From contig NZ_RDQG01000016.1 of assembly GCF_003697815.1 (NCBI RefSeq), positions 62,001 to 126,000 of the forward strand: a stretch of 64,000 nt of DNA, in the 5' to 3' direction. A model generated the notes under the pieces. That model made no database searches, was not told where the DNA came from, and was given only the letters and a program-made list of their open reading frames with translations. The stretch is from Halalkalicoccus subterraneus. GTDB lineage: Archaea; Halobacteriota; Halobacteria; Halobacteriales; Halalkalicoccaceae. Position numbers and translations under genes: made by a program. Below, one piece after another: positions 9,013 through 38,459 of this stretch (within the stretch, counting starts at the first letter, position 1; the number at the start of each line of letters is the position of its first letter).

Positions 9013-10725
9013 TTGATATTCATAGCGTTTAACACGCTATCTAATGGGGAAAAAGTAAAAATACATCCAGATAACAATGAATCGACAAACGAGGAAAGGG
9101 TCAAGACACCGGCTCGCAGCTTGCCCCTCAGCCGGCGGTCCGTGCTGAAAGCCGCGGGCGCCGCCGGTGCCGGGAGTCTGGTAGCTAGCACCGCTGCCAT
9201 GGGAAACTCGGGGTCTGAGTCATTCGATTTGATGGAGACGACCGTCGCAGAGGTACACGCAGCCTTTGAAGATGGCGAACTAACTGCGCGGGAACTTACC
9301 GAACGCTACGTCGAGCGGATCGACGCCTACGACGACGAACTCAACTCGGTCATCACACTCAACGAGGGTGCGGTCGACCGGGCCGAGGAACTCGACGAGG
9401 CGTTCGCGGAGTCGGGCCCCGTTGGTCCGCTCCATGGCGTCCCGCTGATGGTCAAGGACATCTTCAACACGGCGGACCTACCGACTTCGGGCGGGAACGT
9501 ACTATTCGAAGACACGGTCCCACCCGCGGACGCCTTCGTCGTTGAGCGCCTTCGTGAGGCCGGTGCGGTCGTCCTCGCGAAGGTGAATACGGGGGAGTTC
9601 GCCTCCGGCTCGCTGAGTTCCCTCGGCGGCCAGACGTACAATCCCTACGACACGGAGCGGAATCCGTCAGGCTCGAGCGCGGGGACGGGGGCGTCGGTCG
9701 CGGCGAACCTCGCGACGGTCGGCATCGGGACGGAGACGAGCGGCTCGATACTAGGTCCGTCGACGTCAAACTCGCTGGTCGGGGTCCAGCCGACGACGGG
9801 GCTGATCAGCCGCGACGGAATCATCCCGCTCAGCAGCACTCTCGACACCGCGGGACCGATGACCCGAACCGTCGCCGACGCCGCGCGGCTGCTCGACGTC
9901 ATGGTCGGCTACGATCCGGCGGATCCCGTCACCGCCGAAGGGGTCGGTAACATCCCCGAGGAACCGTACACGTCGTTCCTCGAACCCGGCGGGCTCGAGG
10001 GCATCCGGGTTGGCGTCCCTCGAGGGCTCATCCCCGACGATCCCGAAGAGACCGGGATCGACGTCGGACAGCCCGCACAGGTCGTCGAGCGCTTCGAATC
10101 GGGCCTCGAAACGATCGAAGACTGCGGTGCGACGATCGTCGACCCCGTCGAGATTCCCGAGGAGCTCCAAGAGATCGCGGGCGAGCTGGCCGGCGACCTC
10201 ATCACCTACGAGTACCGCCGCGAGTTCAACGCCTACCTCGAGAGTCTCGGCGACGCGGCGCCGGTCGACTCGATGCAGGAGGTCCTTGACTCCGAGACAA
10301 TCGAAGGGTCGATCCTCGGGCTGTTCGAGTCGGCCCTTGAGGTCGACCTGGAGGGACTCGACGAGAACGTCGACTATCTGGGGGCGCTGCGGGACCAGCG
10401 AACGCTCCGCGAGGGGATGTTTGCCGTGCTGGCCGACGACGACCTCGACGCGCTTGTCTACCCCACGGACAACCGCACGCCGGCGGTTGTCGGTGAGGAC
10501 CGGGAGATTCCCGACGCGATAAGCCCCACCATGCGGACGTTCAGCCCCGCGGCTAATTTTCCTAGTATTACCGTTCCCGCGGGGTACACCTCCGATCCCG
10601 CGCTTCCGGTCGGACTCTCGTTTCTCTCAAAGCCGTTCGCCGAACCGGCCCTGATTGGGATGGCCTCAGCCTACGAACGGACCTCGAGCCTGCGCCGTCC
10701 ACCTGAGGGGTTCGGCGCGCTGTAG
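9013..10725 (+). CDS. Tat-exported amidase (amidase signature family)
   Basis: 570 residues if translated from TTG 9013. A twin-arginine signal (LSRRSVLKAAGAAGAGSL) lies at ~39-57, so the enzyme is probably exported. The amidase-signature core follows, with the Ser-cisSer-Lys triad: Lys148 (VPLMVKDIF), Ser222 (GSSAG) and nucleophile Ser245 (ETSGSILG). These enzymes hydrolyse carboxamides to acid and ammonia. The start is odd: no ATG is in frame before the signal peptide, and codons 1-35 are AT-rich unlike the GC-rich body. The natural start may therefore have been replaced at a recombination joint; TTG 9121 is a shorter alternative. No operon partners. Confidence 0.88.
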   Translation: MIFIAFNTLSNGEKVKIHPDNNESTNEERVKTPARSLPLSRRSVLKAAGAAGAGSLVASTAAMGNSGSESFDLMETTVAEVHAAFEDGELTARELTERYVERIDAYDDELNSVITLNEGAVDRAEELDEAFAESGPVGPLHGVPLMVKDIFNTADLPTSGGNVLFEDTVPPADAFVVERLREAGAVVLAKVNTGEFASGSLSSLGGQTYNPYDTERNPSGSSAGTGASVAANLATVGIGTETSGSILGPSTSNSLVGVQPTTGLISRDGIIPLSSTLDTAGPMTRTVADAARLLDVMVGYDPADPVTAEGVGNIPEEPYTSFLEPGGLEGIRVGVPRGLIPDDPEETGIDVGQPAQVVERFESGLETIEDCGATIVDPVEIPEELQEIAGELAGDLITYEYRREFNAYLESLGDAAPVDSMQEVLDSETIEGSILGLFESALEVDLEGLDENVDYLGALRDQRTLREGMFAVLADDDLDALVYPTDNRTPAVVGEDREIPDAISPTMRTFSPAANFPSITVPAGYTSDPALPVGLSFLSKPFAEPALIGMASAYERTSSLRRPPEGFGAL

Positions 10726-11717: not shown

Positions 11718-12392
11718 TTAACTAGGTGAGTGATCCATTTGAGTTGTATCCAAGTTAGGCTGTGGCGGTGAGGTCCTAGATTGTTTTTGATTCTCGAGTG
11801 CATCAGCTAGGAGTTTCGACTCTGCTTTTCGAAGATGTTCTAATGCTGTTGCTCGATTGATATCGAGTTTCTCGGCGAGCTCTTCACTGTTAATTTCACG
11901 TGGCCACTCAAAGTATCCGCTCTCGAGTGCACACTGGACAACCTCCAACTGGCGGTCCGTCAACTGTGATTCAGGTTCTGTGAATTTTGTAACCTTTCCT
12001 AGTGTTACCGTTCCAATTCGATCGAAATCTTTGATCATCGCTTTGAGATCCTCTCGGCGGAAAAATAGGACTGTATATACCCGTCGATTTGGATGAATAG
12101 AACTATTTCGACGAAGAATACAGTGATTCCGATCAATTGCAGAATAAGCACCACACGACACTTTTGTAACAAGATAACTATTTTCATCAAATTGATCGAC
12201 ATTTTTTACACTACTACATTTAGAAAAAAATTCTAAATGTTGCTGTCGTGGTTGGTCAATATTGATAACAAACGTGACTAAGTGGTCATGTAGCTCCTCG
12301 ATAGCGATATTAAATGATGTCTCGAAGTGTTCCGCAAAGTCGTCTAGTACGCACGACTTCTCCTGTTGTAATTGCAGTTCGGCTTGAAACAT
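11718..12392 (-). CDS. HTH-10 (bacterio-opsin activator-like) transcriptional regulator
   Basis: 224 residues. The N-terminal ~1-135 is a sensor-like region with no clear motif. The C-terminal ~143-196 is a canonical archaeal HTH-10 domain: LTDRQLEVVQCALESGYF, then the helix-turn-helix SEELAEKLDINRATALEHLR. Such proteins act as local activators or repressors in haloarchaea. The gene is 76 bp downstream of, and co-oriented with, the LeuA-type enzyme, so it is the likely pathway regulator of the 11.7-21.5 kb module. The Ser/Pro-rich C-terminal tail after the HTH is unusual but short. Confidence 0.85.
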   Translation of the reverse strand: MFQAELQLQQEKSCVLDDFAEHFETSFNIAIEELHDHLVTFVINIDQPRQQHLEFFSKCSSVKNVDQFDENSYLVTKVSCGAYSAIDRNHCILRRNSSIHPNRRVYTVLFFRREDLKAMIKDFDRIGTVTLGKVTKFTEPESQLTDRQLEVVQCALESGYFEWPREINSEELAEKLDINRATALEHLRKAESKLLADALENQKQSRTSPPQPNLDTTQMDHSPS

Positions 12393-12468
12393 CGGTTGCG
12401 TCCGCTAGTGTGATAATGACTCACTCACTATAAAAATTCCCCATGATCTATAGTTTGTATTCCCGCAA

Positions 12469-13563
12469 TTAGTTGTCCTCGAACGTTTGTGTTGCGAGGG
12501 CGAGTGCCTCGTTTTGATCGAGTGGGCCTTGTTCGGTGAGCAGAGTCCCAAATGTAGAGACTCGGTCCTCAGTTGGCTGAATATCTGCACGTTCAAGCAG
12601 CTTGCGTATCGCTGTTTTTCCGGTTGGTTTCCCGAATATAAGTTTGCGGATGCCACCGAATATAGCAGGATCGTACGGCTCAAGCGTTGCAGGATCACTG
12701 AGCATAGCTGCTGTATGAATTCCAGATTCATGTTCGGTTGTCTTCTCACCGAGTACAGCTTTTCGATCGTTATGCGTCTCCTCGAGTGTTGTAAGAACTT
12801 GTTTACAAGTGGGAGCAAGTTTAGTAGTTTCAATATCGAGATCGTCATTGAGATCAACGGCACAGGCAGCAACAACCTCTTCAAGTGCGCTGTTTCCTGC
12901 ACGTTCGCCGAGTGATGCGATGCTTACGTCTGCCTTTGCTACCCCAGCTTGATAGGCTGCCAGAACGTTCGCTGTTGCACATCCCAGGTCATCATGAAAA
13001 TGAACGCCAAGACGAGATAGATCGATATCGTCTTCGAGACTAGTAAGATACGATTCGACGGTTACTGGGGTTCGTGCCCCAACAGTATCAGCGAGAGTGA
13101 CTAAAGGAACGTCCGGAATTGTCTCAAAAACTTCTCGGATATTAGAATGATCAGTTCGGAATGCGTCTGCAAGAGTAACATGCGGTGTCACACCTCGATC
13201 AATAATGTACTCAATTGCCTCAGTAAGCATTGTCAGCATCTCTTCACGGCTGGTATCAAGGAGATGTTCGAGATGTCTATCAGAGACGGAGATAAAGGTC
13301 TCTACAATATCTGCATTGGCATCAACCGCTACGTCGATATCTCGTTCGAGAGATCGTGCAAGGGCAATGATTTTTGCGTCGGTTGTACCTGAAAGATCAT
13401 TGATAACTGTCTGATCTTTTTCGCCGGTCGCAGGAAACGCTGGCTGAATGTATGGTAGTCCTAGATCGTCTAGCATTCGTGCAGCTTCGATTTTTTGCTG
13501 TGTAGTATACTCGCGGCCAGGCATTTGGTCACCTTCACGAAGTGTCACATCATTTAGCATCAT
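12469..13563 (-). CDS. LeuA/NifV-type (HMGL-like) acyltransferase or 2-alkylmalate lyase
   Basis: 364 residues, a TIM-barrel of the pyruvate carboxyltransferase (HMGL-like) family. The catalytic strand NDVTLREGDQMPG is at 4-16, the metal-binding HFHDD near 194 and a LGERAGN loop near 220, followed by the SGIH region of the synthase type. It lacks the C-terminal LeuA allosteric domain, so it resembles homocitrate synthase in size. Family members join acetyl-CoA to a 2-oxoacid or catalyse related C-C cleavage. It overlaps the CoA-transferase gene (ATGA at 13560-13563), implying tight co-expression. With a CoA transferase and LeuCD-like hydratase nearby, cleavage of a CoA-activated 2-alkylmalate to acetyl-CoA plus oxoacid is the attractive reading; a synthetic role is the alternative. 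Confidence 0.85.
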   Translation of the reverse strand: MMLNDVTLREGDQMPGREYTTQQKIEAARMLDDLGLPYIQPAFPATGEKDQTVINDLSGTTDAKIIALARSLERDIDVAVDANADIVETFISVSDRHLEHLLDTSREEMLTMLTEAIEYIIDRGVTPHVTLADAFRTDHSNIREVFETIPDVPLVTLADTVGARTPVTVESYLTSLEDDIDLSRLGVHFHDDLGCATANVLAAYQAGVAKADVSIASLGERAGNSALEEVVAACAVDLNDDLDIETTKLAPTCKQVLTTLEETHNDRKAVLGEKTTEHESGIHTAAMLSDPATLEPYDPAIFGGIRKLIFGKPTGKTAIRKLLERADIQPTEDRVSTFGTLLTEQGPLDQNEALALATQTFEDN

Positions 13564-14777
13564 ATGACGTCAGTCTCCTCTAATTTTGCAAATTCTGCGT
13601 TGCTCATACCAAGTTCATTGAGATAGACGTCTTCATTATGTTCGCCGTGTCGTGGACCAAGAAACTCTACTTCACCGGGTGTCCGTGAGAACTTCGGAAT
13701 CGGAGCAAAGGTTTTAATTGAGCCAACATCTGGATCTTCGACCTCGATGATGCTATCGCGTGCTTGGTATTGTTCGTCTTCGAAAATATCGGCCATATCA
13801 TATACTGGTCCAACAATTGCGTCGTGTGCTTCAAAGACTTCAACCGCTTTGTCAGTGGTTCGTTGCTTTGTCCAGTCTTCGATTGCTTGATCGAGGACCT
13901 TAGCATTCTCAACGCGAGTTTCATTGTCGACGAATCGTGGATCGTTAATTAGCTCTGGTTTGTCAATTGCCCTAGCAACGCGTTCGAATGTTTTCTGATT
14001 CGAGGCAGACAGTGTCATATAGCCGTCCTCTGTTTCGTAGATATTTCGTGGTGCGGCTCCTGGATGTCGGTTGCCGGTTCGTTCCCGAACGTATTCCATC
14101 CGGTCGTAAGCCTCTACTTCTCCAAATCGAAGTCGCCAGAGTGGTTCAATCAGCGAGACATCGATTACCTGTCCCTCACCGCTCCCACCACGGCCAACGT
14201 CCCGTTCAAATATCGCCATCAATGTTGCTTGAAGTGCAAACTGTGCCGCTGTCAGATCAGCTAAACTGATCGGTGGCAAAAGTGGTTCTCTGTCAGGAAA
14301 GCCATTTGCATGCGCCCATCCTGAAATTCCTTCGGCGACAGTTCCAAAGCCCGGCTTTTCTGCCTTGGGCCCAGTCTGCCCGTACCCGGAAAGACGTACC
14401 ATGATCGCTTCCTCATTGACCGCATGCACATCGGTTGGTCCAAGGCCCCATCGCTCCATTGTTCCCGGCCGAAAATTCTCGAAGACGACGTCAGCATCTT
14501 TAATAAGTAGAAGAGCTATCTCTCGCCCTTCTTCAGATCCGAGGTCAAGCGTGATACAACGTTTGTTCCGACCGAGAGATTTCCACGACAGTGACTCACC
14601 GTTTTTAGCTTTTTGTGGCCATTCCCGGATTGAGTCTGGAATTTCAGGATGCTCAACCATAACGACATCCGCACCGAAATCGCCGAGCATCGTCGTTGCG
14701 AACGCTCCGCTGATCATCCCTGACATATCGATAACACGGAGCCCGTCCAATGGACCCGTTCGTTCTCTTGCTTCCAT
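13560..14777 (-). CDS. Family III CoA transferase (CaiB/BaiF)
   Basis: 405 residues, normal family length. Characteristic blocks are LGDFGADVVMVEHPE (~32-46), SLGRNKRCITLDL (~67-79), FENFRPGTMERWGLG (~99-113), SGYGQTGP (~130-137) and SLADLTAA, with the likely catalytic Asp174. These enzymes move CoA between carboxylic acids through an enzyme-bound acyl anhydride. It is transcribed just before, and overlapping, the LeuA-type gene. In bacterial itaconate and citramalate degradation the same pairing of a CoA transferase and a lyase is used; the analogy is inference, since the exact acid cannot be read from sequence. Confidence 0.92.
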   Translation of the reverse strand: MEARERTGPLDGLRVIDMSGMISGAFATTMLGDFGADVVMVEHPEIPDSIREWPQKAKNGESLSWKSLGRNKRCITLDLGSEEGREIALLLIKDADVVFENFRPGTMERWGLGPTDVHAVNEEAIMVRLSGYGQTGPKAEKPGFGTVAEGISGWAHANGFPDREPLLPPISLADLTAAQFALQATLMAIFERDVGRGGSGEGQVIDVSLIEPLWRLRFGEVEAYDRMEYVRERTGNRHPGAAPRNIYETEDGYMTLSASNQKTFERVARAIDKPELINDPRFVDNETRVENAKVLDQAIEDWTKQRTTDKAVEVFEAHDAIVGPVYDMADIFEDEQYQARDSIIEVEDPDVGSIKTFAPIPKFSRTPGEVEFLGPRHGEHNEDVYLNELGMSNAEFAKLEETDVI

Positions 14778-14966
14778 AGTGCTCTATGATACCAACATTC
14801 TTATGACGAAAGGCAGTTGCTCCACCGAGTGTTGGCTATTTATGTACTATCGCGCTTGTAAATGGATTTCTTATAGGGGCTTGAAGGTGTCCAGAGAGAG
14901 TGAATCACTGTGAAGCTGAACAAAAAGTAGAACAAAGAGAGATAATATAGTTTCATTAGATAATAA

Positions 14967-15839
14967 TTACTTTCCTGATGTAGAGTGCTCAAGAAGAGTA
15001 GCCGCGATAAGGAGTGTTGTTGCAAGCGTACCAATATTCTCGTGAAACGCACGAATGTGGGTTGCACACCTATCGATAGAGTGAGATTCATACCCAATCG
15101 ATCGTAGAGTCCGCCGGTGTGATCTATGATTTGATTTGGCTAGTAATGTTGTAGCATACTGATTTCGGATCCATCGTTCGAGCCGCCATTGGGAAGGAAC
15201 ACGATTGTAGGTAGCAAGCTGGATCGCAACGACTTTGGATAGAAACTCGGGATCCACAGCTAATGCCTGAAAGATTGTATTCACGTTAGGTGTACGGAGA
15301 GCAGTACGAAGGTCGTTATAAATATTAGAGATCTGTCTGTTGGCATCAGTCGGTGTGATTATTGGGAAATCCGGAGCAATAGGAATAGTAGTTTGAAGTC
15401 CCTCGTGGACTGCAGAAGGACGTAACTGTTCAGTATCATATGATTTTTCTAACAGATCTATCGATCCGTATTCCGTAGCCTCAGCGTGAGCCTTATGCGT
15501 ATACTGACCATCAAGACGATATCGACAGGCAGCAACTGATAATCCTAGCCGAAAGACTACAAATGAAAAGAATGGAACAACATTGTATATGTGTGGGTCA
15601 GGGACTGTTCGGCGATCAACAACACGTTCGATTACCTCTTTAACTGGTGTATGAAGTTGATCTCTCGTGGCTGCTGCGACATTCAAAGCGGCATCTTCGT
15701 TCCATTCTGCCAGTAGGATCTGTTTGGATTCTTCCCAGAGGAGTCGACGATACTCTGTGGGAATACTATCGATAGATAAATACGAGGGAACGAACCCAAG
15801 TATATCCTCGATTTCCTCGGTACTGTGTGCAGTGATCAT
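14967..15839 (-). CDS. DehI-like (haloacid dehalogenase family) protein
   Basis: 290 residues from ATG 15839 (ATG 15863 would add 8). Two similar helical halves are visible: IPTEYRRLLWEESKQILL near 27-44 and IYNDLRTALRTPNVNTIFQA with VDPEFLSKV near 180-210. This duplicated helical pattern matches haloarchaeal proteins annotated as halocarboxylic acid dehydrogenase DehI. Bacterial DehI removes halogen from both isomers of 2-haloacids by direct attack of water. The haloarchaeal relatives are of unproven function. It heads the minus-strand group and is divergent from leuC. Codon use is AT-rich like its neighbours. Family assignment moderate, substrate unknown. Confidence 0.6.
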   Translation of the reverse strand: MITAHSTEEIEDILGFVPSYLSIDSIPTEYRRLLWEESKQILLAEWNEDAALNVAAATRDQLHTPVKEVIERVVDRRTVPDPHIYNVVPFFSFVVFRLGLSVAACRYRLDGQYTHKAHAEATEYGSIDLLEKSYDTEQLRPSAVHEGLQTTIPIAPDFPIITPTDANRQISNIYNDLRTALRTPNVNTIFQALAVDPEFLSKVVAIQLATYNRVPSQWRLERWIRNQYATTLLAKSNHRSHRRTLRSIGYESHSIDRCATHIRAFHENIGTLATTLLIAATLLEHSTSGK

Positions 15840-15977
15840 ATATTTCGATACTTTCCACAACAAATAGCTGTTCGTTTACTACCGTTAGATATCTCTTGGA
15901 GAAATCCTGCTATAGTAATTAAAGTACCAACGTTGATTGGGGAAAACCTCATCGTCCTATCTGTAGAGTTATGTGCT
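15840..15977. promoter_or_regulatory. Divergent promoter region of the catabolic module
   Basis: 138 bp between the DehI-like gene (minus) and leuC-like (plus). It is AT-rich with several TATA-like runs in both directions (for example TAGTAATTAAAG around 15914). An upstream GTG (15825) in the leuC frame would overlap the divergent gene and looks non-coding, so the region is read as regulatory. The HTH-10 regulator is the obvious candidate to bind here. Confidence 0.4.
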
Positions 15978-17234
15978 ATGCCAACAATTGCCGAAAGTAT
16001 TCTCTCTAAACAGCTGGGAGCTCCTGTGGAGCCGGGCATGATTGAGAAATTTCCGGTTGACTTTGCATTTGGGCATGATATGACACTCCCAGCAGCGATC
16101 AAAGAGTTCAATGAGCTCGGGGTCGGTAGCGTATTCGATCCCGATGCTATCGCCGTTATACCGGATCATTTGATCCCGCCACATAATGAACACGCTGCTG
16201 AGCTTTATTCTACATGTGAAGCATTTGCTGAAGAGCATGGTACGATTTTCTACCCGCAAGGAAGGCAAGGGCAAGAGCATGTTGTTATCCCAGAAGATGG
16301 TCTCGTGAAACCAGGCGACGTCGTCGTAGGTGCTGATAGTCACACTTGTACTGAAGGGGCACTAGGAGCGTTCGCTGTCGGTGTTGGAAGTACGGATCTT
16401 GCTTTTGCAATGGCGTTTGGCTGGCTGTGGCTGCGAGTTCCTGAGACAACACGGGTCAATTTCACTGGTAAAATAGGCGAATGGACCGAACCGAAAGATC
16501 TCGTATTAGCATTGCTGGCTAACATCGGCGCAGATGGCGCTGTCGGTCATGCACTAGAATTCGGTGGCGAGACAGTTCGGGCTCTCGATATGGACGGTCG
16601 GCTCACCCTCTCGAATATGGCTATCGAAGCAGGTGGTGCGACGGGGATAGTTGAGCCTGATGCCGTGACAGAACAGTATGCTAATGAACGTGTTGATGAA
16701 GATTTTAAATTACATACCCCTAAACACCCAACATATGAACAGAAAATAAAAATTGATTGCGAGAATTTGGAGCCACAAATTGCAATTCCAGAAAGTCCGG
16801 CAAATGTCGTTCCAATCTCGGATACCAGAGTTTCCGACATCGAAATTGATCAAGCAGTAATTGGCTCATGTACGAATAGCCGTAAGCGTGACCTTCAGAT
16901 TACTGCGGCTATCCTTGAGGACCATTCGGTTGCTACAGGAGTGCGACTTATTGTAACACCTGGTTCACAGCGCCTTGAAAGACGTGCTATCCGCGAGGGA
17001 TGGACGGAGACGTTCCTCAAAGCTGGAGCAACGATGGAGAATCCAGGGTGTGGTGCATGCTTCGGAATGCGGACAGGCGTTCTTGATGAAAACGAGGTTG
17101 CTATCTCAACGACCAATCGAAACTTTCCAGGCCGAATGGGTGACCCAACTAGCGCAGTCTATTTGGCTAGTCCAGCAGTGGCCGCAGCAAGCGCAGTTAC
17201 AGGACGAATTACACATCCTCGAGAGGTGATATAG
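15978..17234 (+). CDS. Aconitase-family large subunit (LeuC/HacA-like)
   Basis: 418 residues from ATG 15978, the length of archaeal homoaconitase/isopropylmalate isomerase large subunits. The 4Fe-4S ligands are Cys298 (GSCTNSRK) and Cys358/Cys361 (NPGCGAC); the substrate-loop motif is GADSHTCTEGALGAF at ~118-132. The enzyme performs stereospecific dehydration/hydration of hydroxy-di/tricarboxylic acids together with the small subunit that follows immediately. It sits outside any leucine-biosynthesis operon and next to CoA-transferase and LeuA-type genes, so it is a catabolic or specialised homolog. Substrate not determinable from this subunit. Confidence 0.93.
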   Translation: MPTIAESILSKQLGAPVEPGMIEKFPVDFAFGHDMTLPAAIKEFNELGVGSVFDPDAIAVIPDHLIPPHNEHAAELYSTCEAFAEEHGTIFYPQGRQGQEHVVIPEDGLVKPGDVVVGADSHTCTEGALGAFAVGVGSTDLAFAMAFGWLWLRVPETTRVNFTGKIGEWTEPKDLVLALLANIGADGAVGHALEFGGETVRALDMDGRLTLSNMAIEAGGATGIVEPDAVTEQYANERVDEDFKLHTPKHPTYEQKIKIDCENLEPQIAIPESPANVVPISDTRVSDIEIDQAVIGSCTNSRKRDLQITAAILEDHSVATGVRLIVTPGSQRLERRAIREGWTETFLKAGATMENPGCGACFGMRTGVLDENEVAISTTNRNFPGRMGDPTSAVYLASPAVAAASAVTGRITHPREVI

Positions 17235-17729
17235 ATGGGACAAGCGTTCTGCTTTGGTGATGATATTGATACAGATCAGATTATTCCTGCACAGCACATC
17301 ACGTCTGCAGATCCGACTGCACTCGCCGATCACTGCATGGAAGGTGCAGATCCAACGTTTGCCGACTGTGTCACACCAGGAGATGTGCTCGTGGCTGGGA
17401 GTAATTTCGGCTGTGGTTCCTCGCGTGAACACGCACCATTGGCGATTCTCGGAACTGGTGTTGATGCAGTTATTGCTGAATCATTTGCCCGGATTTTCTT
17501 CCGAAACGCGATCAATATCGGCCTCCCAGTTTTGACGGTCTCGGATGCAACCGATCGCATGACTGCTGGCGATGATGTGGAGGTCCATATAGAAGACTAC
17601 ATCGTGGAAAATAGAACGACTGACGATCAAATGGAGATCAACAATTATCCCGACTTCGTTAATGAAATCATAGAGGCGGGTGGGTTGATCGAATACGGAA
17701 AGACTCTGTCTCAATCAAATACTCGTTAA
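17235..17729 (+). CDS. Aconitase-family small subunit (LeuD/HacB-like) with atypical specificity loop
   Basis: 164 residues starting directly after the large-subunit stop. It carries the family core [12 protein letters not shown] (9-20), [13 protein letters not shown] (56-68) and [15 protein letters not shown]. The flexible loop right after IIPA reads QHITSADP, whereas characterised archaeal small subunits have a YL-type loop: YLRT in homoaconitase and YLVY in isopropylmalate isomerase of Methanocaldococcus. Tyr-Leu replaced by His-Ile suggests a different substrate. The gene is co-transcribed with the large subunit and probably reads toward the ABC importer, though a terminator-like hairpin intervenes. 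Confidence 0.93.
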
Positions 17730-17818
17730 GGCTTGGCGGTACTACCAAGCACAAGCATCAAGGAAGCAGTGGCTTGGAGAATTCATTGACCTTCTGAGGA
17801 CTTGAGGACTTAAACCGA

Positions 17819-17841
17819 CCCACCAATAGTGGGGTGTTTTT
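17819..17841 (+). terminator. Hairpin with T-tract after the aconitase genes
   Basis: The stem CCCAC/GTGGG with a 5-nt loop is followed by GTGTTTTT. It may end, or attenuate, transcription between leuD-like and the importer operon. Stem is short; moderate support. Confidence 0.4.
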
Positions 17842-17948
17842 GTAGATGTACTCGCTCAGAGAGTCTTATTCTGATTCATATACTATTAATAGGCCCTACA
17901 CTGGTTGGTAGAAGAATCATAATCAATCGTCGATTGTGATAGACTACC

Positions 17949-19028
17949 ATGAAACATGGCAACCAGAAGAATGGCGACTTAGACTCCGCGCTTTCACGTC
18001 GGCGCTTCTTAGGTGGAACTGGAGCAGCAGTAGCAAGTGGCTCTATGTCAGGCTGTGTAGATGATCTCGTAGGTGGAGCCACCGGAGATGGTACCTTCTC
18101 AGCAGAAGTGACAGTCACGCATTGGCCGCTCTTGATGTACAACCCACCATATCAGGCTGCTTTGGAAAACGGATATTTTGAGGAGGAGGGTGTCGAAATA
18201 GAGGGTATTGCCGGTAGCGAGGGTGGTGGAACAACTGTTCGAAACGTCGTAACCGGGGGACTTCCATTTGGTGAAGTCGCAACACCAGGAGCAGTAAACG
18301 GGTATTACGCTGGTTCGGATATTACGATCGTCGCCGCGACAGTTAACACACCGGGGACTATCAACTGGGTTGCACCCCAGGGCTCAGAAATAGAGTCGAT
18401 GGCAGATCTTGAAGGTGGTACGATTGGGTATACGAGTGCCGGTTCCGTGACCGAAAATACAGGGGCGCTATCAGTTGCGAGAGCAGATGAACTAGACGTC
18501 GATGACGTCGAGTTCCAAGGAATGGGTGGAGTCAGCGAAGGGCTAACCGGACTTGAAGAAGGAGCGATTGATGTTGCAGCAAACATGGATCCCATTTTTT
18601 CGAGTCAACAGGCAGGTGAAGAACAATGGCAAGTCGTGTTCCGAGCAGCGGATTATATTCCGGAGTTTATGCAGACCGTTATCATCGTAGGACCGGAAAC
18701 AATCGAAAACGATCCTGATGCCATTGAGGGATATATTAGAGCGCGTAATCGAGGAGTCGAATTTGTCCGAGATAATCCTCAGGAAGCGGCCGAGATCTAC
18801 GCATCCTACAATGAGGGATTTGATACAGAAGTCATGGAAATGGCGATTGAGAATGCAGACGTGGATAGTTACTATGCTACTGGTGAATTTTCTGTAGAAG
18901 GTCTTGAACTAATCGAGGAGGGAATGCAGAACATTGGACTGATCGATCATGACGTTGAATGGTCTGAGATTATCGACCAATCATATCTTGAGGATGAAAA
19001 ACATATAGATCTCAGCGAGGCTGAATAG
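17949..19028 (+). CDS. ABC importer substrate-binding lipoprotein (SsuA/NMT1-like)
   Basis: 359 residues. A twin-arginine lipoprotein signal (SRRRFLGGTGAAVASGSMSGC) lies at ~17-37 with the lipobox Cys near 37, so it is exported folded and lipid-anchored outside the cell. The mature part has the NMT1/THI5-type layout: ALENGYFEEEGVEIE, a GGTTVRNVVTGG loop and SMADLEGGTIGYTSAGS. These proteins catch sulfonates, pyrimidine precursors, nitrate-like or aromatic/organic acids. It heads the operon with ATPase and two permeases. Linked to a CoA transferase and aconitase pair, it plausibly delivers the organic acid that they degrade (inference). Confidence 0.9.
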   Translation: MKHGNQKNGDLDSALSRRRFLGGTGAAVASGSMSGCVDDLVGGATGDGTFSAEVTVTHWPLLMYNPPYQAALENGYFEEEGVEIEGIAGSEGGGTTVRNVVTGGLPFGEVATPGAVNGYYAGSDITIVAATVNTPGTINWVAPQGSEIESMADLEGGTIGYTSAGSVTENTGALSVARADELDVDDVEFQGMGGVSEGLTGLEEGAIDVAANMDPIFSSQQAGEEQWQVVFRAADYIPEFMQTVIIVGPETIENDPDAIEGYIRARNRGVEFVRDNPQEAAEIYASYNEGFDTEVMEMAIENADVDSYYATGEFSVEGLELIEEGMQNIGLIDHDVEWSEIIDQSYLEDEKHIDLSEAE

Positions 19029-19066
19029 TTGACTCTAAGAACATCACTCACCAAAACAAATTAAAA

Positions 19067-19936
19067 ATGACAATGTTAACTATCGATAATATCAGTAAGA
19101 CATATGGGTTAGACGATGATCGAAAGAGCACAGTCAAAGCGCTTGAAGATATTGATATGACTATCGAAGAGGGAGAATTTGTTTCTATAATTGGTCCAAC
19201 TGGATGTGGAAAGAGCACATTGTTCGAAATCATAGGCGGTCTCATAAACCCAACAACAGGAGAACTTAGATTAGAAGATAAACCCGTTACTGAACCACAC
19301 CCCCGTATTGGGATGGTGTTTCAAGATCATAGTACCTTTCCTTGGCTGACAGTCATCGAAAATGTTGAATTCGGGGTACGTATGAATGGTATGGACGAAA
19401 CTGAGCGGCGAAGACGGGCACAAGAGATGCTTGATCTCGTCGGGCTTTCAGGCTTCGAAGATACGTACCCGAACGAACTCTCTGGAGGGATGAACCAACG
19501 GGTAGCAATTGCCCGAACACTTGTGATGGATCCAGATGTACTGTTGATGGATGAACCGTTCGGTGCGCTCGACGAACAAACTCGATTGATTCTTGGCGAA
19601 GAACTACTCCGGATTTGGCGGGAAACTGGAAGCACAATACTATTTGTCACACATAATATCAATGAAGCAGTCCAGTTGTCTGATCGAATCGCTGTAATGA
19701 GTGCTCGACCCGGGCGCTTCAAAGCAATTGTTGAAAACGAGATTCCGCGTCCACGTGACGACGATACGATGTCGACTGATGCTTTCAATGATCTTGTTCA
19801 GCAGCTATGGGACGAACTGAAAGAAGAAAGCAGACGGGGTCTTGAACAAAAAGAATATGGAGATGACGGGAGTGAGCGTAGCGAGGATTCAGCATCTAAA
19901 AAAGATCAATCGTCAGAGGTTGATTCGACAATATGA
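19067..19936 (+). CDS. ABC importer ATPase (SsuB/TauB-like)
   Basis: 289 residues. Walker A GPTGCGKST at ~44-52, Q-loop VFQDHSTFPW, signature LSGGMNQRVAIAR at ~138-150, Walker B VLLMDEPFGALDE and H-loop FVTHNINEAV. The FPWLT after the Q-loop and EPFGALDE are typical of nitrate/sulfonate/taurine-type importers. An acidic, Ser-rich C-terminal tail of ~30 residues is common in haloarchaea. Its stop overlaps the start of the first permease (ATGA at 19933-19936). It energises transport on the cytoplasmic side. Confidence 0.95.
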   Translation: MTMLTIDNISKTYGLDDDRKSTVKALEDIDMTIEEGEFVSIIGPTGCGKSTLFEIIGGLINPTTGELRLEDKPVTEPHPRIGMVFQDHSTFPWLTVIENVEFGVRMNGMDETERRRRAQEMLDLVGLSGFEDTYPNELSGGMNQRVAIARTLVMDPDVLLMDEPFGALDEQTRLILGEELLRIWRETGSTILFVTHNINEAVQLSDRIAVMSARPGRFKAIVENEIPRPRDDDTMSTDAFNDLVQQLWDELKEESRRGLEQKEYGDDGSERSEDSASKKDQSSEVDSTI

Positions 19937-20730
19937 GTACGGAATCGCGTCTCACGCTTCCAATATCGACGTTGAGTTGGCGCCAACGAGTGAGTATAGT
20001 ACAAATCCTAGTCATCGGATCAATTCTCGCATTTATTGAGTTTGCACCACAGTATGGCCTAGTTGATCCCACGACGCTAATTCCGCTGAGCGAGATGGTT
20101 AGCGAGCTGCTTGACCTGTTGTTCGCAGGTGTACTGACTCCCCATATTATCCAGACCTTCACCGCAGTGTTTGGTGCTTTCTTGCTTGCTATTCTTACTG
20201 GCCTTCCAATCGGAATCTTACTATGGCGAATTAGTACACTGAAAGAAATTATGGATCCATATTTGCTAATTTACTATGCAATTCCTTTCTTTGCTTTCTA
20301 CCCTCTTTTGATCAGTATTATGGGAATCGGGATTATGCCAATTCTGACCATTGCATGGGGATTTAGTGTTGTTATTATAATCACTAATACTGCATCCGGA
20401 CTTGATGAAATTCCAGAAGTATATGTTAAGGCAGGTAAAGATATGAACCTTAATTCGCGGCAGTTACTCCAACACGTCTACTTTCCTGCAGCAGTTCCAT
20501 ATGTTTTCACAGGACTAAAACTAGGATTCATCTACGCCTTGATTGGGACGATTGCAAGCGAATTTATCCTTGCCGAGAATGGATTAGGTTGGTTAATTTC
20601 ATACAATTACAACAATTTTGACGTTCAAGGAATGTTCGCAGCAATGTTGTTAGTTATTTTACTAGCTTTATTCGTTAATGCAGTGTTAGCATCTATTGAG
20701 AATCGTCTCTACAGGAGGGTTCAAACATGA
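19933..20730 (+). CDS. ABC importer permease 1 (SsuC-like)
   Basis: 265 residues with about six hydrophobic segments. The EAA-type cytoplasmic loop that docks the ATPase is recognisable around VKAGKDMNLNSRQLLQHVYF with the downstream P-x-VFTGLKLG. Start and stop overlap both neighbours (ATGA), giving a tightly coupled ATPase-permease-permease unit. The two permeases probably form a heterodimeric channel. Confidence 0.93.
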   Translation: MSTESRLTLPISTLSWRQRVSIVQILVIGSILAFIEFAPQYGLVDPTTLIPLSEMVSELLDLLFAGVLTPHIIQTFTAVFGAFLLAILTGLPIGILLWRISTLKEIMDPYLLIYYAIPFFAFYPLLISIMGIGIMPILTIAWGFSVVIIITNTASGLDEIPEVYVKAGKDMNLNSRQLLQHVYFPAAVPYVFTGLKLGFIYALIGTIASEFILAENGLGWLISYNYNNFDVQGMFAAMLLVILLALFVNAVLASIENRLYRRVQT

Positions 20731-21521
20731 GCATTAGTACTTCCCAGTACATCGATCGAGAAGACGTCATATTCGCCGGTCAACTTGCTGTACCCGTTGT
20801 GATTCTTCTACTATGGCAGTTGCTATCAATGGTGACCGGACAGTTTGCCTTGGCTAGTCCAGCAGAGTCGTTCAATGCAATGGTTGAGGGGTTCCAGACA
20901 GGCTGGATGACTGAAGGACTCCAGATTACGCTTATCGAGGTTATTATTGCGTATATACTAGCTGTGATTGTTGGTGTTTGGGCCGGAGTGTTCCTTGGTG
21001 TAAACGACTTTATGAAGGATGTATTTGAACCGATCGTTTTAGGTGTTTACGCAATCCCGAAGGTTACTCTGTATCCACTCTTTCTGTTCATTTTTGCCCT
21101 AGGGATGGATGCTATTATCGCATTCGGGTGGTTCCACGGAGTATTCCCGATTGCTATTCTCACTATGCGCTCAATGGATGTTATTAAAGAAGAACACACC
21201 AAAGTGGGAAAATCGTTGCGTCTCTCTCGATGGCAGCAATTTCGCCATATTACTGTCCCTTCAATCCTACCTGGACTCATCATTGGACTTAGACTTGGAT
21301 TTAACCTCACATTCCTAGGGGTAGTTTTAGGTGAAATGTTTGCTGCTCGTGCTGGTCTAGGTCATTCTTTAGTAGAGTTTATAGGTGGTGTCCAAATTGA
21401 TCGAATCTTAGCAATTATCATTGTTCTCGTAGCTATTGCAACAGTGGTGAATCTATTCTTTTTCGCATTAGAAAGTCGAATTGGGGCGCGTGGTCGAGAA
21501 GGTGCCGAAGTTCGAATGTGA
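20727..21521 (+). CDS. ABC importer permease 2 (SsuC-like)
   Basis: 264 residues, about six transmembrane helices. The EAA loop KVGKSLRLSRWQQFRHITVP is followed by GLIIGLRLGFN, matching the SsuC/TauC fold. It is related to but clearly distinct from permease 1, so a heterodimer is expected. It is the last gene of the importer operon; the dispersed repeat copy R2 begins about 90 bp after its stop, which marks the right edge of the AT-rich module. Confidence 0.93.
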   Translation: MSISTSQYIDREDVIFAGQLAVPVVILLLWQLLSMVTGQFALASPAESFNAMVEGFQTGWMTEGLQITLIEVIIAYILAVIVGVWAGVFLGVNDFMKDVFEPIVLGVYAIPKVTLYPLFLFIFALGMDAIIAFGWFHGVFPIAILTMRSMDVIKEEHTKVGKSLRLSRWQQFRHITVPSILPGLIIGLRLGFNLTFLGVVLGEMFAARAGLGHSLVEFIGGVQIDRILAIIIVLVAIATVVNLFFFALESRIGARGREGAEVRM

Positions 21522-23263: not shown

Positions 23264-24307
23264 TCAGATCTCCAACTTGTCTTCGTCGTGAAGGAGACAG
23301 CGGCTGACGTGATCAGTGCCGACGTCAACTAACTTGGGTTCGACTTGAGAACACTCATCAACGGCTCGATGACATCTCGGGTGAAACGGACAACCGGAGG
23401 GCGGATCAGACGGATCGGGCGTCTCGCCACGGATCGAAATCCTCTCCGGCTTGAACGCTGCTTCCGACTCCTCGACGATCGGAATCGCCGATAGTAACTG
23501 TTCAGTGTACGGGTTTTGCGGGGCATCAAACAGCGTCTCCGCAGGTGCTTTCTCCATGAGTTTTCCTAGATACATTACGCCGATGCGGTCGGCAATGTTC
23601 TTCGTGAGACTCAGATCGTGTGTGATCATGAGATACGAGAGGTTGCGTTCTTCCTGTAATTCCTCAAGAAGCGCGATTACCTTGGCTTGGACGCTCACGT
23701 CCAGCGCGCTCGTCGGTTCGTCGAGAACGAGCAAGGATGGGTTAAGGGTCAGGGCACGAGCGATCGCAACTCGCTGTTTCTGGCCGCCGGAAAGCTCGTT
23801 CGGGTACCGATACAGAAAGTCCTCCGGCAAGTCGACGCGTCCGAGCAGTTCCGCGACGCGTTCTCGTCGCTCGGCTTTCGTACCAATATTGTGGACAATC
23901 AGCGGCTCGGCGACGATGTCTTTGATCCGCTTTCGCGGATTTAGCGACGACGTCGGATCCTGATAGACAACCTGAATTTCGCGTCGAACTGGCTTGAGAT
24001 TCCTCTCGGACAGGTCCGAAATGTCTCGTCCGTCGAATGTGATCGATCCCCCGGTCGGCGCGTGGAGCCGAGCAATCGTCTTGCCAAGGGTCGTCTTGCC
24101 ACAGCCAGACTCGCCGACGATGGCAAACGTTTCCCCGCGTTTGACATCAAAGGAGACGCCGTCAACGGCTTTCACCTCGCCGACCTGTTTCTTGAGCAGC
24201 CCACCCGTAATTGGATAGTACTTCTCGAGGTCCCGAACCGTGAGAAGCGATTCGTCGGTGCCGTCGATGCTATCAGTTTCGTCAGTCCTGGAATGACCAC
24301 TACTCAT
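23264..24307 (-). CDS. oppF: Oligopeptide/dipeptide ABC importer ATPase OppF-type
   Basis: 347 residues from ATG 24307 (overlaps the stop of oppD by 8 nt). Walker [10 protein letters not shown], signature [15 protein letters not shown], Walker [17 protein letters not shown] and the H-loop MITHDLSL are all present. The C-terminal oligopeptide-transporter domain has the GCPFHPRC cysteine cluster that binds 4Fe-4S in relatives. The [12 protein letters not shown] motif is diagnostic of Opp/Dpp ATPases. It is the last gene of the A-B-C-D-F operon, paired with OppD to drive uptake. Confidence 0.95.
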
Positions 24308-25508
24308 CGGTATCCTCCGTGGCACGAGACGCCTGTGCGTCGATCGGAGCCGTTGTCCCAGCACCTCCACTCTCCACGCTCAACTGGTTCTGGGGTGGGT
24401 CCGAGGTCGGCCGATGCTCAAATGCCACCTCGCCGTTGTACTCGATCTCCTCATTTGCAATTTCGATCGCTTCCTCTCGAGACAGACCATCTTCGTAGAG
24501 GTGACAGGCGACTTCCTGTCCCGACGACAGTTCGTATCGTGGCGGCCGTTCGACGTCGCACGTACCGGCCATGGCAGCCGGACAGCGCGGGTGGAACCGA
24601 CAGCCCGACGGCGGATCAGTGTAGTCGGGGAGAACCCCCTCGATCCCGTCACGATTGAACTCAGTGAGCTTCGGTACGCTGTCGACGAGACCCTGGCTGT
24701 AGGGGTGTAACGGCTCGTCAAGGATCTCGTCTCGAGTGCCAACCTCGGCGATCTCGCCGGCGTACATGACGTAGATTCGGTCGGCGATCCGGCGGGCGAC
24801 GCCAAGGTTGTGTGTGATGTACAGCATCGAAAGATTCTCTCGTTCGATTTGTTCGGTCAACAGACCGAGGATTTGATCCTGGACCGTGACGTCGAGCGCT
24901 GTCGTTGGTTCGTCCGCAATGAGAAATTCAGGTTCACTGAGCATCGCCATCGCGATCAGGATTCGCTGGCGCATCCCGCCGGAGAGCTCGATCGGATACC
25001 GACCGAGAGCGCTTTCCGGATCCGGAATCTGGAGTTGGTCAAGCAATTCAACGCTTCGATCATGCATCGCCGCTTTGTCTGTGTCGCGTCGACCCAGCAC
25101 ATTGCGAACGATCTCGAGCCAGCCGACGTTCGTTTTACCCTGATAGGTCAGGACGTCGCGCATCATCTCGCCAACGGTAAACACCGGCGAAAGACTCGTC
25201 ATCGGGTCCTGAAAGATCATTCCCATCGACTCGCTTTTGACCCGTTCGTGAGCCGTCTGATCGCCAAGGAGCTCCTCACCCTTGTAGTATAGTTCGCCGT
25301 CGATAATCTCGCCAGGTGGTTGAGGGAGCATCCCCATGATCGTTTCCGCCGTGACGCTTTTTCCACAGCCGGATTCGCCAACGATGGCGACGGTTTCGCC
25401 CTCATTGACGGTGATATCGATGTCGTTAATGACACGAGCGCGGCCGTCAAACGTATTGAAATGAACTTCGAGATCGCGAAGTTCGAGGATTGGATCAGTC
25501 ATACTCAT
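24300..25508 (-). CDS. oppD: Oligopeptide/dipeptide ABC importer ATPase OppD-type
   Basis: 402 residues. Walker A GESGCGKSV, signature LSGGMRQRILIAMAM, Walker B FLIADEPTTALDVTVQ and H-loop YITHNLGV, with the C-terminal Opp domain and Cys cluster (GCRFHPRCPAAMAGTC). An extra ~60-residue Glu/Thr-rich C-terminal tail is common in haloarchaea. It begins one base after oppC ends, so the genes are contiguous in one transcript. Confidence 0.95.
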   Translation of the reverse strand: MSMTDPILELRDLEVHFNTFDGRARVINDIDITVNEGETVAIVGESGCGKSVTAETIMGMLPQPPGEIIDGELYYKGEELLGDQTAHERVKSESMGMIFQDPMTSLSPVFTVGEMMRDVLTYQGKTNVGWLEIVRNVLGRRDTDKAAMHDRSVELLDQLQIPDPESALGRYPIELSGGMRQRILIAMAMLSEPEFLIADEPTTALDVTVQDQILGLLTEQIERENLSMLYITHNLGVARRIADRIYVMYAGEIAEVGTRDEILDEPLHPYSQGLVDSVPKLTEFNRDGIEGVLPDYTDPPSGCRFHPRCPAAMAGTCDVERPPRYELSSGQEVACHLYEDGLSREEAIEIANEEIEYNGEVAFEHRPTSDPPQNQLSVESGGAGTTAPIDAQASRATEDTDE

Positions 25509-25509
25509 T

Positions 25510-26421
25510 TTAGTCTACCTCCACGTCGAGGACGTCACGAAGCCCGTCACCGAGCAAATTAAACCCGAGAACGGCGATGAAGATCGCTACGCCGGGGAAT
25601 GTCGAGTACCACCACTGGGCGGGGAGATAGGCGCGTCCTTCGGCGATCATCGTCCCCCACTCAGGCGTGGGCGGTTGGGCACCGAGACCGAGGAAGCCGA
25701 GGCTGGCTCCAATCAGGATGGCATAGCCCATGTCGAGGCTGAATTTGACCGTGATCGGTGCCAATACGTTGGGGAGAATTTCCCGGAACATAATTCGGAG
25801 TCGGCTTGCGCCGATGCCGCGGCTGGCTTCGACGAACTGCTCTTCGCGAACCGAGATCACCTCGCCATAGACCAGTCTGGCGTACCACGGCCACCAGACA
25901 ACGGCGATGGCGATCATCGCGTTTCGAAGGCTCGGCTGGAGCGGTACCGCCACCGCGAGTGCGAGCACGAGCGGCGGAACTGACAAGAAGATATCGGTGA
26001 TTCGCATAAGCACCTGCCCGGTGAACCCACCGACGTATCCGGCGACGAGCCCAACCGGAACGCCGATACCGATCGCGAACGTGAGGACGAACAGTCCGAG
26101 CGCGAGTGAGTACCGTGTCCCAAATATAACTCGTGAGAGAATGTCTCTTCCGGACTGATCCGTCCCAAACGGATGCGCAAGACTCGGTTCAGCGAATCGG
26201 TTTGCGAAGTCGACCGCAGGTTCACCCATGTAACCGGCATCCTGTGGGTGTCGGGCGATGTACGGCGCGAAGATCGCAACAAAAACGAGTCCAACAATGA
26301 TTCCAAGCCCCACCAGTGACAGCGGGTTCTGCCGGAACCGATATGCGATCCGGCGGGTGCTCTCCTTGCGATTCTCCATTGCCTCAGAGTTGTACCAGCT
26401 CTCGAGCTTGCTCGTACTCAT
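25510..26421 (-). CDS. oppC: Oligopeptide/dipeptide ABC importer permease OppC-type
   Basis: 303 residues. An N-terminal helix (~33-53), a long external loop containing AHPFGTDQSGRDILSRVI (the DppC/OppC hallmark) and five further helices are visible. The EAA loop reads VEASRGIGASRLRIMFREILP. Its start overlaps the end of oppB (26418-26421). It forms the channel with OppB. Confidence 0.95.
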   Translation of the reverse strand: MSTSKLESWYNSEAMENRKESTRRIAYRFRQNPLSLVGLGIIVGLVFVAIFAPYIARHPQDAGYMGEPAVDFANRFAEPSLAHPFGTDQSGRDILSRVIFGTRYSLALGLFVLTFAIGIGVPVGLVAGYVGGFTGQVLMRITDIFLSVPPLVLALAVAVPLQPSLRNAMIAIAVVWWPWYARLVYGEVISVREEQFVEASRGIGASRLRIMFREILPNVLAPITVKFSLDMGYAILIGASLGFLGLGAQPPTPEWGTMIAEGRAYLPAQWWYSTFPGVAIFIAVLGFNLLGDGLRDVLDVEVD

Positions 26422-27437
26422 TCGCTGTCACCTCCGTACCTGACCCGCGGATCGAAGTAGCCATAGAGAATATCGACTATCAGGTTCGCAAGAATGAATA
26501 CGACGCCTACAACCAGCGTTACGCCGACGATCGCGTTGATATCGTTTGCTAAAATGGCGTTGACGCCGTAGCGGGCCATTCCCGGCCAAGCGAAGACGAT
26601 TTCAATGAGAAACGCCGACCCAATGAGAAAGCCATAGTCGAGTGCGATGATCGTCAACGTCGCCGCGAACGACGATTTCAGGACGTATTTGTAGGCGATG
26701 AGTTTTCCGGGAATGCCCGAAGAATGCAACGCGTGGACGTAGTCCTTGTTCAACTCTTCAATAAAACTTGAGCGGGTCATCCTAGCAATGTCGGCCATCG
26801 GTGCGAGCGCGAGCGTAAACGCAGGCAGTGCGAGGTGGACAATTGCGCTCCGGAACGCGCGGAAGTCCATCGCGATCAGGCTATCGACGAGCATCATCCC
26901 GGTCAACCGAGGTGGTGCTTCTACGCCGATTCGTCCGGTCGCCGGGAGCAGCCCCAGATGGAATGCGAAGACGAGCTGGAGCAAGATCGCCGCCCAGAAG
27001 GCGGGCATCGAAACACCAAAGAACGCGAACAGTCGACTGGCGTTGTCCTCGACCTCATCTTTGTTTCTGCCGGCGATAATACCGAGCGGAACCCCGATAG
27101 CGATGGCGATGAGCATCCCAACCGTAATCAGCTCGAACGTCGCCGGGAAGAAGTAGATGAGATCTGCCGCGGTATTTCGGTTTGTGGTAAGCGAAATACC
27201 CATATCTCCCTGCAGCAACCCGGCCATGTAATCGAAATACTGAATGACAACCGGATCGTCGAGTCCCATCTCATCCCGGAGCGACTGAACGGCGTCGCCC
27301 GAGGCTCGTGGGCCGAGCGCGAGCCGCGCCGGATCGCCTGGGAGCACACGCGCCAGCGTGAAGATGAGGATTGAGAGTCCAATGAAAACGGGAATGCCGG
27401 CAAGTGTCCGTCGTATTACGTAGCTTTTGAATCCCAT
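26418..27437 (-). CDS. oppB: Oligopeptide/dipeptide ABC importer permease OppB-type
   Basis: 339 residues from ATG 27437, where the family start YVIRRTLAGIPVFIGLSIL begins; the longer frame to 27653 would overlap the binding-protein gene with no membrane character. Visible are GDPARLALGPRAS after helix 1, about six helices and the EAA-type segment IEELNKDYVHALHSSGIP. It pairs with OppC. Confidence 0.95.
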   Translation of the reverse strand: MGFKSYVIRRTLAGIPVFIGLSILIFTLARVLPGDPARLALGPRASGDAVQSLRDEMGLDDPVVIQYFDYMAGLLQGDMGISLTTNRNTAADLIYFFPATFELITVGMLIAIAIGVPLGIIAGRNKDEVEDNASRLFAFFGVSMPAFWAAILLQLVFAFHLGLLPATGRIGVEAPPRLTGMMLVDSLIAMDFRAFRSAIVHLALPAFTLALAPMADIARMTRSSFIEELNKDYVHALHSSGIPGKLIAYKYVLKSSFAATLTIIALDYGFLIGSAFLIEIVFAWPGMARYGVNAILANDINAIVGVTLVVGVVFILANLIVDILYGYFDPRVRYGGDSE

Positions 27438-27471
27438 ATAGTGTTGAAGTAATATCGCGTGAAATGTTCGA

Positions 27472-29100: not shown

Positions 29101-29223
29101 GATATGGATACCCGAGGCGAGAAAGATATACCTTTCGCATAACGTCATCATCGATGCCCGAATTAGCCCCTTATAGAATATATACTCCACAAAGCGTGAA
29201 CGAATTAGTTCAAAACGTGATTG

Positions 29224-33841: not shown

Positions 33842-34094
33842 AAGAAGCACACAATTCGGAGAATGTATTAAACCTTCTGCCACCAAATTTCCTCTATATT
33901 ATTTATTTCGACCATAATAAGTTGGTAAATAATTAAGAAGGTAGATTGAATAACACATCAAGGAACAATACCTCGACGATTCGTCCACTCACTATTCACG
34001 GCGCATCCTTGCTCTCATCGGGCCCGCTTTCACAGTCTGTGTAACGAACGAAAGCCATCCACAAGATGCCACGACCGTGCTCCGAATAAGATTC
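33842..34094. promoter_or_regulatory. Upstream region of hyuA copy 1
   Basis: An AT-rich segment at 33885-33950 with TATATTATTTATTT-like sequence about 45-65 bp before the GTG start (minus direction) is the best promoter candidate. 33960-34090 has no ORF; nothing else seen. Confidence 0.4.
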
Positions 34095-38443: not shown

Positions 38444-38459
38444 CCGAGACCAACGGCAC

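Follow-up and report, generated by a model that had tools for sequence, protein, structure and literature searches.

A putative CoA-dependent lyase module in Halalkalicoccus subterraneus that recurs among haloarchaea

Two divergent gene groups of Halalkalicoccus subterraneus bring together a coenzyme A (CoA) transferase, a LeuA-type enzyme, LeuC- and LeuD-like subunits, an importer and a regulator, and raise the question of whether such a set builds up an acid or breaks one down. They span 11.7-21.5 kb of a 64-kb window (the whole stretch of DNA analysed, from contig NZ_RDQG01000016.1 of the 3.6-Mb genome). We consider that the block is probably a regulon for the breakdown of a 2-hydroxy-dicarboxylic acid of the 2-alkylmalate (citramalate/dimethylmalate) class. 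An earlier note on this DNA had proposed a C5-dicarboxylate catabolic route; the finding is larger than that, namely a predicted CoA-dependent lyase module which recurs in haloarchaea with a putative regulon of its own. The genes of the block are the following.

11718..12392, - strand: HTH_10 (bacterio-opsin-activator type) transcriptional regulator (PF04967, E=2.7e-22)
12469..13563, - strand: LeuA-type DRE-TIM metallolyase, 364 aa (HMGL-like PF00682, E=1.1e-56, and HCS_D2 PF22617)
13560..14777, - strand: family III (CaiB/BaiF) CoA transferase (PF02515, E=1.8e-114, residues 10-381)
15978..17234, + strand: LeuC-like large subunit, aconitase-family hydro-lyase (PF00330, E=1e-101; likely start ATG 15978)
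17235..17729, + strand: LeuD-like small subunit, LeuD/DmdB family (TIGR02087, 193.5 versus a cut-off of 109)
17949..19028, + strand: NMT1/SsuA-type solute-binding protein with a Tat-like leader (PF09084, E=8e-27)
19067..19936, + strand: SsuB-type ATPase (PF00005)
19933..20730, + strand: SsuC-type permease 1 (PF00528)
20727..21521, + strand: SsuC-type permease 2 (PF00528)

This gene set is as the earlier note gave it, and all of its genes and positions stand; only its assignment of a further open reading frame (ORF) to DehI, discussed below, does not. The CoA transferase and LeuA-type genes share a 4-bp overlap, the Fe-S Cys residues are intact in the LeuC-like protein, and the HTH_10 gene is likely the regulator of the module. 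The note had also held that this is not a biosynthetic operon, which is supported by three observations: the module contains no leuB-like gene (four Iso_dh-family, i.e. isocitrate/isopropylmalate dehydrogenase, genes lie elsewhere in the genome), the genome's own LeuA and LeuC are found in a leucine-type cluster on another contig (C79), and the LeuA-type protein scores below the synthase cut-offs.

The LeuA-type protein shares its fold and its metal and substrate motifs with the 2-isopropylmalate, citramalate and homocitrate synthases, but differs from them in scores, domain content, one strand residue and its catabolic context. It falls below every curated NCBIfam synthase cut-off (best 280.6 versus 517; LEU1_arch 262.7/484.8, nifV 234/463, LysS 222/414, CimA 128/450), and domain search reveals no LeuA dimer domain. 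The curated HMG-CoA-lyase model is not reached either (66 versus a cut-off of 246), and the protein reads GERAGN where the HMG-CoA-lyase branch has a Cys loop. The DRE-TIM core is otherwise kept, with Arg9, the metal ligands, His188/His190 and the catalytic His283. Homologues were gathered from 392 haloarchaeal genomes, named contigs and plasmids, yielding 84 distinct LeuA-type loci; position 40, in the I-E-x-G-F/I-P strand, is Gln in 80 of these 84 members, whereas all six references, among them NifV, the LeuA of E. coli and that of H. subterraneus, have Glu. Annotation pipelines name the LeuA-type proteins of many haloarchaea citramalate synthase or LeuA family.

The CoA transferase and the LeuA-type enzyme are the widespread core of the module, a point that the earlier note missed. 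A CoA transferase gene is found near the LeuA-type gene in 79 of the 84 loci and an HTH_10 gene in 63. The other partners are a CUT1 ATP-binding cassette (ABC) importer (25 loci), a hydantoinase A/B block (24), an SSS symporter (6), a Tct transporter (6), SsuABC (5) and LeuCD (2), with none of these kinds at 19. In compact operons made up of an importer, a CoA transferase and a LeuA-type gene, four unrelated importer families are represented, and the Haloferax pSVX82-2 locus consists of a regulator, an importer, the CoA transferase and the LeuA-type gene, and nothing else; SsuA orthologues adjoin the LeuA-type and CoA transferase genes in L061, L068, L069/L103 and L092. Because unrelated importer families adjoin the same pair, the two enzymes seem sufficient downstream of uptake. 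Such swapping is typical of a catabolic core whose imported acid would need CoA transfer and one further step, and the dedicated uptake proposed earlier is supported. The closest solved relatives of the CoA transferase are the succinate-hydroxymethylglutarate CoA transferases 9br6 and 9br7; it lies below the cut-off of every named equivalog (mesaconate, glutarate, oxalate, formyl, carnitine).

The direction of the LeuA-type reaction is best judged from the loci with the hydantoinase (Hyu) block, which comprises HyuA, HyuB and an amidohydrolase (IsoCH) and is present in 37 of the 392 genomes. In 21 of these 37 the block stands beside the CoA transferase and LeuA-type genes; in the other 16, among them H. 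subterraneus itself (contig C24), it is followed by a lyase of the isocitrate-lyase/PEP-mutase (ICL/PEPM) family. None of the 37 has both the pair and the ICL-family lyase at the Hyu locus, or neither of them there. The ICL-family lyases of the 16 genomes are 75-100% identical to the H. subterraneus copy (L160); they possess a KRCGH motif and carry Pro where the oxaloacetate acetylhydrolase 3lye carries Ser, as do the 2,3-dimethylmalate lyase 3fa3 and the top match 4iqd in that strand. We take this residue to be a marker that separates 2-alkylmalate-type lyases from oxaloacetate acetylhydrolase. Cleavage of 2-hydroxy-diacids is an established activity of the ICL/PEPM superfamily. A reference listed in PMC7609661 credits its members, by title, with acting on 2-alkylmalates, among others. 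Because the pair and the ICL-family lyase replace each other beside the Hyu block, the CoA transferase and LeuA-type enzyme together should do a job equivalent to that of a 2-hydroxy-diacid lyase, i.e. activation and C-C cleavage. No other argument for the lyase direction is as strong as this mutual replacement, which is independent of the reasoning in the earlier note; together with the swapped importers and the shared operator described below, it supports the note's proposal of CoA activation followed by cleavage.

One natural precursor suggested by the Hyu block is a cyclic imide, a hydantoin or a related ring. Its composition is that of the N-methylhydantoinase (HyuA/B) plus N-carbamoylsarcosine amidohydrolase system, and IsoCH most resembles N-carbamoylsarcosine amidohydrolase (26st, 1nba) and, at a greater distance, 3uao/3ot4, presumably maleamate amidohydrolases. 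The N-methylhydantoinase system, however, yields an amino acid, whereas here a hydroxyacid lyase follows, so the substrate must differ. We know of no pathway that joins a cyclic imide- or hydantoin-type ring to a hydroxy-diacid lyase. The open-licence literature likewise yielded no haloarchaeal pathway with a hydantoinase and either a CoA transferase or an isochorismatase, which is weak evidence. The C24 operon of H. subterraneus (L160:6656-12239) reads HyuA, HyuB, carbamoylase-like protein and ICL-family lyase, has a perfect palindromic operator (CCAACAGCTGTTGG), and is flanked by a divergent HTH_10 gene and a BMP-family ABC importer; the ICL-family lyase gene spans L160:6656-7615, and the Hyu-ICL part of the operon is organised alike in 15 other genomes.

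A shared putative operator ties the operons of the module together. Alignment of the upstream regions of CoA transferase genes revealed that a conserved element immediately follows the TATA box; from it a matrix and a strict 14-bp pattern, CCWAC-N6-TGG, were derived. Putative operators of this kind lie before all three operons of the module.

14822..14835, - strand: putative operator CCAACACTCGGTGG, just downstream of the TATA box and upstream of the CoA transferase gene; conserved in related loci
15927..15940, + strand: putative operator CCAACGTTGATTGG, ~40 bp upstream of the LeuC gene; strict match
17895..17908, + strand: putative operator CCTACACTGGTTGG, after a TATA-like box, ~45 bp upstream of the SsuA gene; strict match

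The strict pattern occurs seven times in the 64 kb, and three of these occurrences precede the CoA transferase, LeuC and SsuA genes. The SsuA site, which is not among the sites behind the matrix, is the second-best matrix match of the window (18.7), where six Markov shuffles peak at 11-15. In Natronorubrum daqingense the same kind of site (CCAACGCGGATTGG, L092:14943) is found upstream of LeuC, and the CoA transferase gene is also preceded by the pattern. Strict matches precede HyuA in 16 of 16 ICL-type and 12 of 24 LeuA-type loci and the CoA transferase at 16 of 78 promoters, against a background of 3 of 1279 other genes; the pattern was derived from CoA-transferase sites, so that independent support comes from LeuC, SsuA and HyuA only. 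With three mismatches allowed, the operator is no commoner than chance in the window, and only the strict pattern in combination with position is informative; outside the Hyu clade, the sites are looser or missing at many loci. Co-regulation of the three window operons through this putative operator, on which the earlier proposal had hinged, is supported by the strict pattern before each of them. A strict match (CCAACTTATTATGG, 33912-33925) also lies ~26 bp upstream of the first HyuA start of a further window operon (23264-33886, - strand), which may belong to the same regulon.

The unusual component of the module is LeuCD, a point that had likewise escaped the earlier note: LeuC of the module type (at least 57% identity) is present in just 3 of the 392 genomes. 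The window protein passes the cut-off of the IPMI_arch subfamily (455.5 versus 410) and remains below the leucine LEU2 (485 versus 611) and homoaconitase (417 versus 550) equivalogs; its best solved relative is the isopropylmalate/citramalate isomerase 4nqy. On a plasmid of Natronorubrum daqingense, LeuCD, SsuABC, the CoA transferase, the LeuA-type gene and HTH_10 recur together. The LeuA-type proteins of these two species share only 53% identity, and that of the window nests within the Hyu-linked clade; LeuCD and SsuABC may thus have joined the core on more than one occasion. The third genome (G354, L100:8463-10244) has LeuCD among other genes, without a LeuA-type or CoA transferase gene; there the same hydratase is put to another use. 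A Halomarina LeuC found beside the module (32%, L037, L053) was set aside; it is of the canonical leucine kind and unlike the LeuC of the module.

The best model, in that it joins all parts, is hydration of a free alkylmaleate followed by CoA transfer and cleavage. SsuABC would import the precursor, and LeuCD, to judge from its family, would hydrate an unsaturated diacid, e.g. citraconate or another alkylmaleate, to a 2-alkylmalate. The CaiB-type transferase would then place CoA on the 2-alkylmalate, probably from succinyl-CoA, and the LeuA-type enzyme would cleave the 2-hydroxyacyl-CoA to an acyl-CoA and a 2-oxoacid, e.g. acetyl-CoA and pyruvate, as the interchange of lyases suggests. In doing so it would run the condensation of its family in reverse, without thioester hydrolysis. 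By sequence, C4, C5 and C6 dicarboxylates cannot be told apart as substrates; citraconate/citramalate, dimethylmaleate/dimethylmalate, maleate/malate and hydroxymethylglutarate would each fit parts of the evidence. The earlier interpretation was therefore right in kind (catabolism, CoA activation, cleavage) and too specific in naming a C5 acid.

The wider proposal, to which we give somewhat less than an even chance, is that a DRE-TIM enzyme of the LeuA (Claisen-condensing) branch has turned CoA-ester lyase and forms, with a CaiB-type transferase, a widespread haloarchaeal core interchangeable with an ICL-family lyase behind an ATP-dependent hydantoinase/imidase and a carbamoylase-type amidohydrolase, in an undescribed route that would break down a cyclic nitrogen-containing compound or its diacid. 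The pair looks like such an undescribed route, spread over dozens of related species. If this is true, it gives a function to a family now annotated as citramalate synthase or LeuA, reverses the assumed direction of the reaction, and provides a natural case of two unrelated enzyme solutions, one CoA-dependent and one CoA-free, swapping in a single pathway. With a predicted regulon and a defined operator, the substrate should be findable by induction screening.

Parts of this scheme have counterparts in known systems. In Chloroflexus, succinyl-CoA:D-citramalate CoA transferase and R-citramalyl-CoA lyase yield acetyl-CoA and pyruvate, and there too (compared by description, not by sequence) a family III CoA transferase is adjacent to an HMGL-superfamily protein. 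The Chloroflexus lyase, however, belongs to the HMG-CoA-lyase branch, whereas the partner here is of the GERAGN/LeuA branch and comes with LeuCD, importers, the Hyu block and the operator. In the nicotinate fermentation of Eubacterium barkeri, DmdAB and the ICL-family 2,3-dimethylmalate lyase act without CoA; the order is similar, a LeuCD/DmdAB-type hydratase making a 2-alkylmalate ahead of C-C cleavage, but the ICL-family lyase is the very element replaced in haloarchaea by the LeuA-type enzyme and CoA transferase, and cleavage here would be CoA-dependent. The bacterial itaconate cluster Ict-Ich-Ccl converts a C5 dicarboxylate to acetyl-CoA and pyruvate by CoA transfer, hydration and cleavage (PMC12290011). 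There Ich hydrates after CoA activation and Ccl cleaves, whereas the present module would employ LeuCD, presumably on the free acid, and a LeuA-type lyase; no itaconyl-CoA hydratase or CitE-type citramalyl-CoA lyase is present among the ten genes of the module region. The haloarchaeal methylaspartate cycle includes a family III succinyl-CoA:mesaconate CoA transferase acting on a C5 diacid (PMC5592240), and the module transferase scores 207 against the curated model of that enzyme, with a cut-off of 700. The accessible portions of the open-licence literature on DRE-TIM enzymes and citramalyl-CoA contain no LeuA-type lyase of this kind, which is weak evidence.

Several observations weigh against the model. 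By sequence the LeuA-type enzyme sits in the condensing (GERAGN) branch with its catalytic His, it could still hydrolyse the thioester, and we infer its lyase direction from genomic context; no member of the module is tied to a characterised close relative, and the Hyu-linked loci contain no hydratase, so that LeuCD would feed some variants only. Neither Gln40 nor the Leu, Met or Phe at the position of BjMAMS Tyr399 is diagnostic, and the genome's own LeuA likewise has Phe there. BjMAMS carries a Glu227/Tyr399 pair (PMC11532901), and its absence was rejected as proof of a lost synthase, since one or both residues are also missing from NifV and from the LeuA of H. subterraneus. The LeuA-type protein might accordingly be a true condensing synthase that joins an acyl-CoA, from the CoA transferase or as acetyl-CoA, to a 2-oxoacid from an upstream pathway, with LeuCD isomerising the product on the model of leucine, coenzyme B or phosphonomethylmalate biosynthesis. 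All condensing-branch motifs are retained, the pipelines say citramalate synthase, and LeuA with LeuCD neighbours is mostly biosynthetic; yet the missing leuB-like dehydrogenase, the importers of several families, the interchange with the ICL-family lyase, scores far under all synthase cut-offs and an accessory, often plasmid-borne distribution make synthesis improbable. As a contrast case, a phosphonate cluster on a Pantoea plasmid (L107) has a LeuA/NifV-type gene and a LeuCD-like pair in a biosynthetic setting.

The same chemistry might instead serve another substrate, either maleate by way of D-malate and malyl-CoA, giving acetyl-CoA and glyoxylate, or 3-hydroxy-3-methylglutarate by way of HMG-CoA, giving acetyl-CoA and acetoacetate. 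The succinate-hydroxymethylglutarate enzyme as closest solved CoA transferase and the likeness of IsoCH to 3uao/3ot4 speak for such a reading. We regard this as rather unlikely, as the replacing ICL-family enzyme is closest to lyases of 2-alkylmalate-type acids and LeuCD would give 2-hydroxy acids, not 3-hydroxy-3-methyl ones. It is also doubtful, to a considerable degree, that LeuCD and SsuABC are chance neighbours and that the pair acts in trans with the HyuA, HyuB and IsoCH of C24: these are indeed present in the same genome (78, 87 and 81%, respectively) with the same kind of operator, but C24 already has its own ICL-family lyase, the operator also precedes LeuCD and SsuABC, and a second, distant species has both of these together with the pair. 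Least credible is a haloacid or hydrolytic dehalogenation pathway run by the DehI-like protein, whose weak similarity to a 2-haloacid dehalogenase (its best PDB match, E=0.002 over 42 residues) is set against the data on the following ORF.

14967..15863, - strand: orphan "DehI-like" ORF with a sub-threshold DehI match, judged outside the module

The score against DehI (PF10778) is 13.7 bits, versus a cut-off of 28.9, over 19 residues. There is no homologue in 243 haloarchaeal genomes, the ORF is absent from all other module loci, and single-sequence structure prediction gives a pLDDT of 35. The identity suggested by the earlier note could not be confirmed, and the dehalogenation or hydrolysis step that it would have added to the pathway is rejected.

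The GC content of the 11718-21521 block is 44-49%, versus 53-61% in most of the near flanks. A search of same-genus genomes gave no LeuA-type copy above 36% identity. Because of these two features, the block is probably a recently acquired island. The long window operon mentioned above (23264-33886, - strand) encodes HyuA, HyuB, an Asp/Glu-racemase-like protein and a dipeptide-type ABC importer, and a second HyuA/HyuB pair (34614-39581, + strand) is followed by an M24-type peptidase (PepQ/creatinase-like). On its other side the island is adjoined by an amidase-signature enzyme with a Tat-like leader (9013-10725, + strand).

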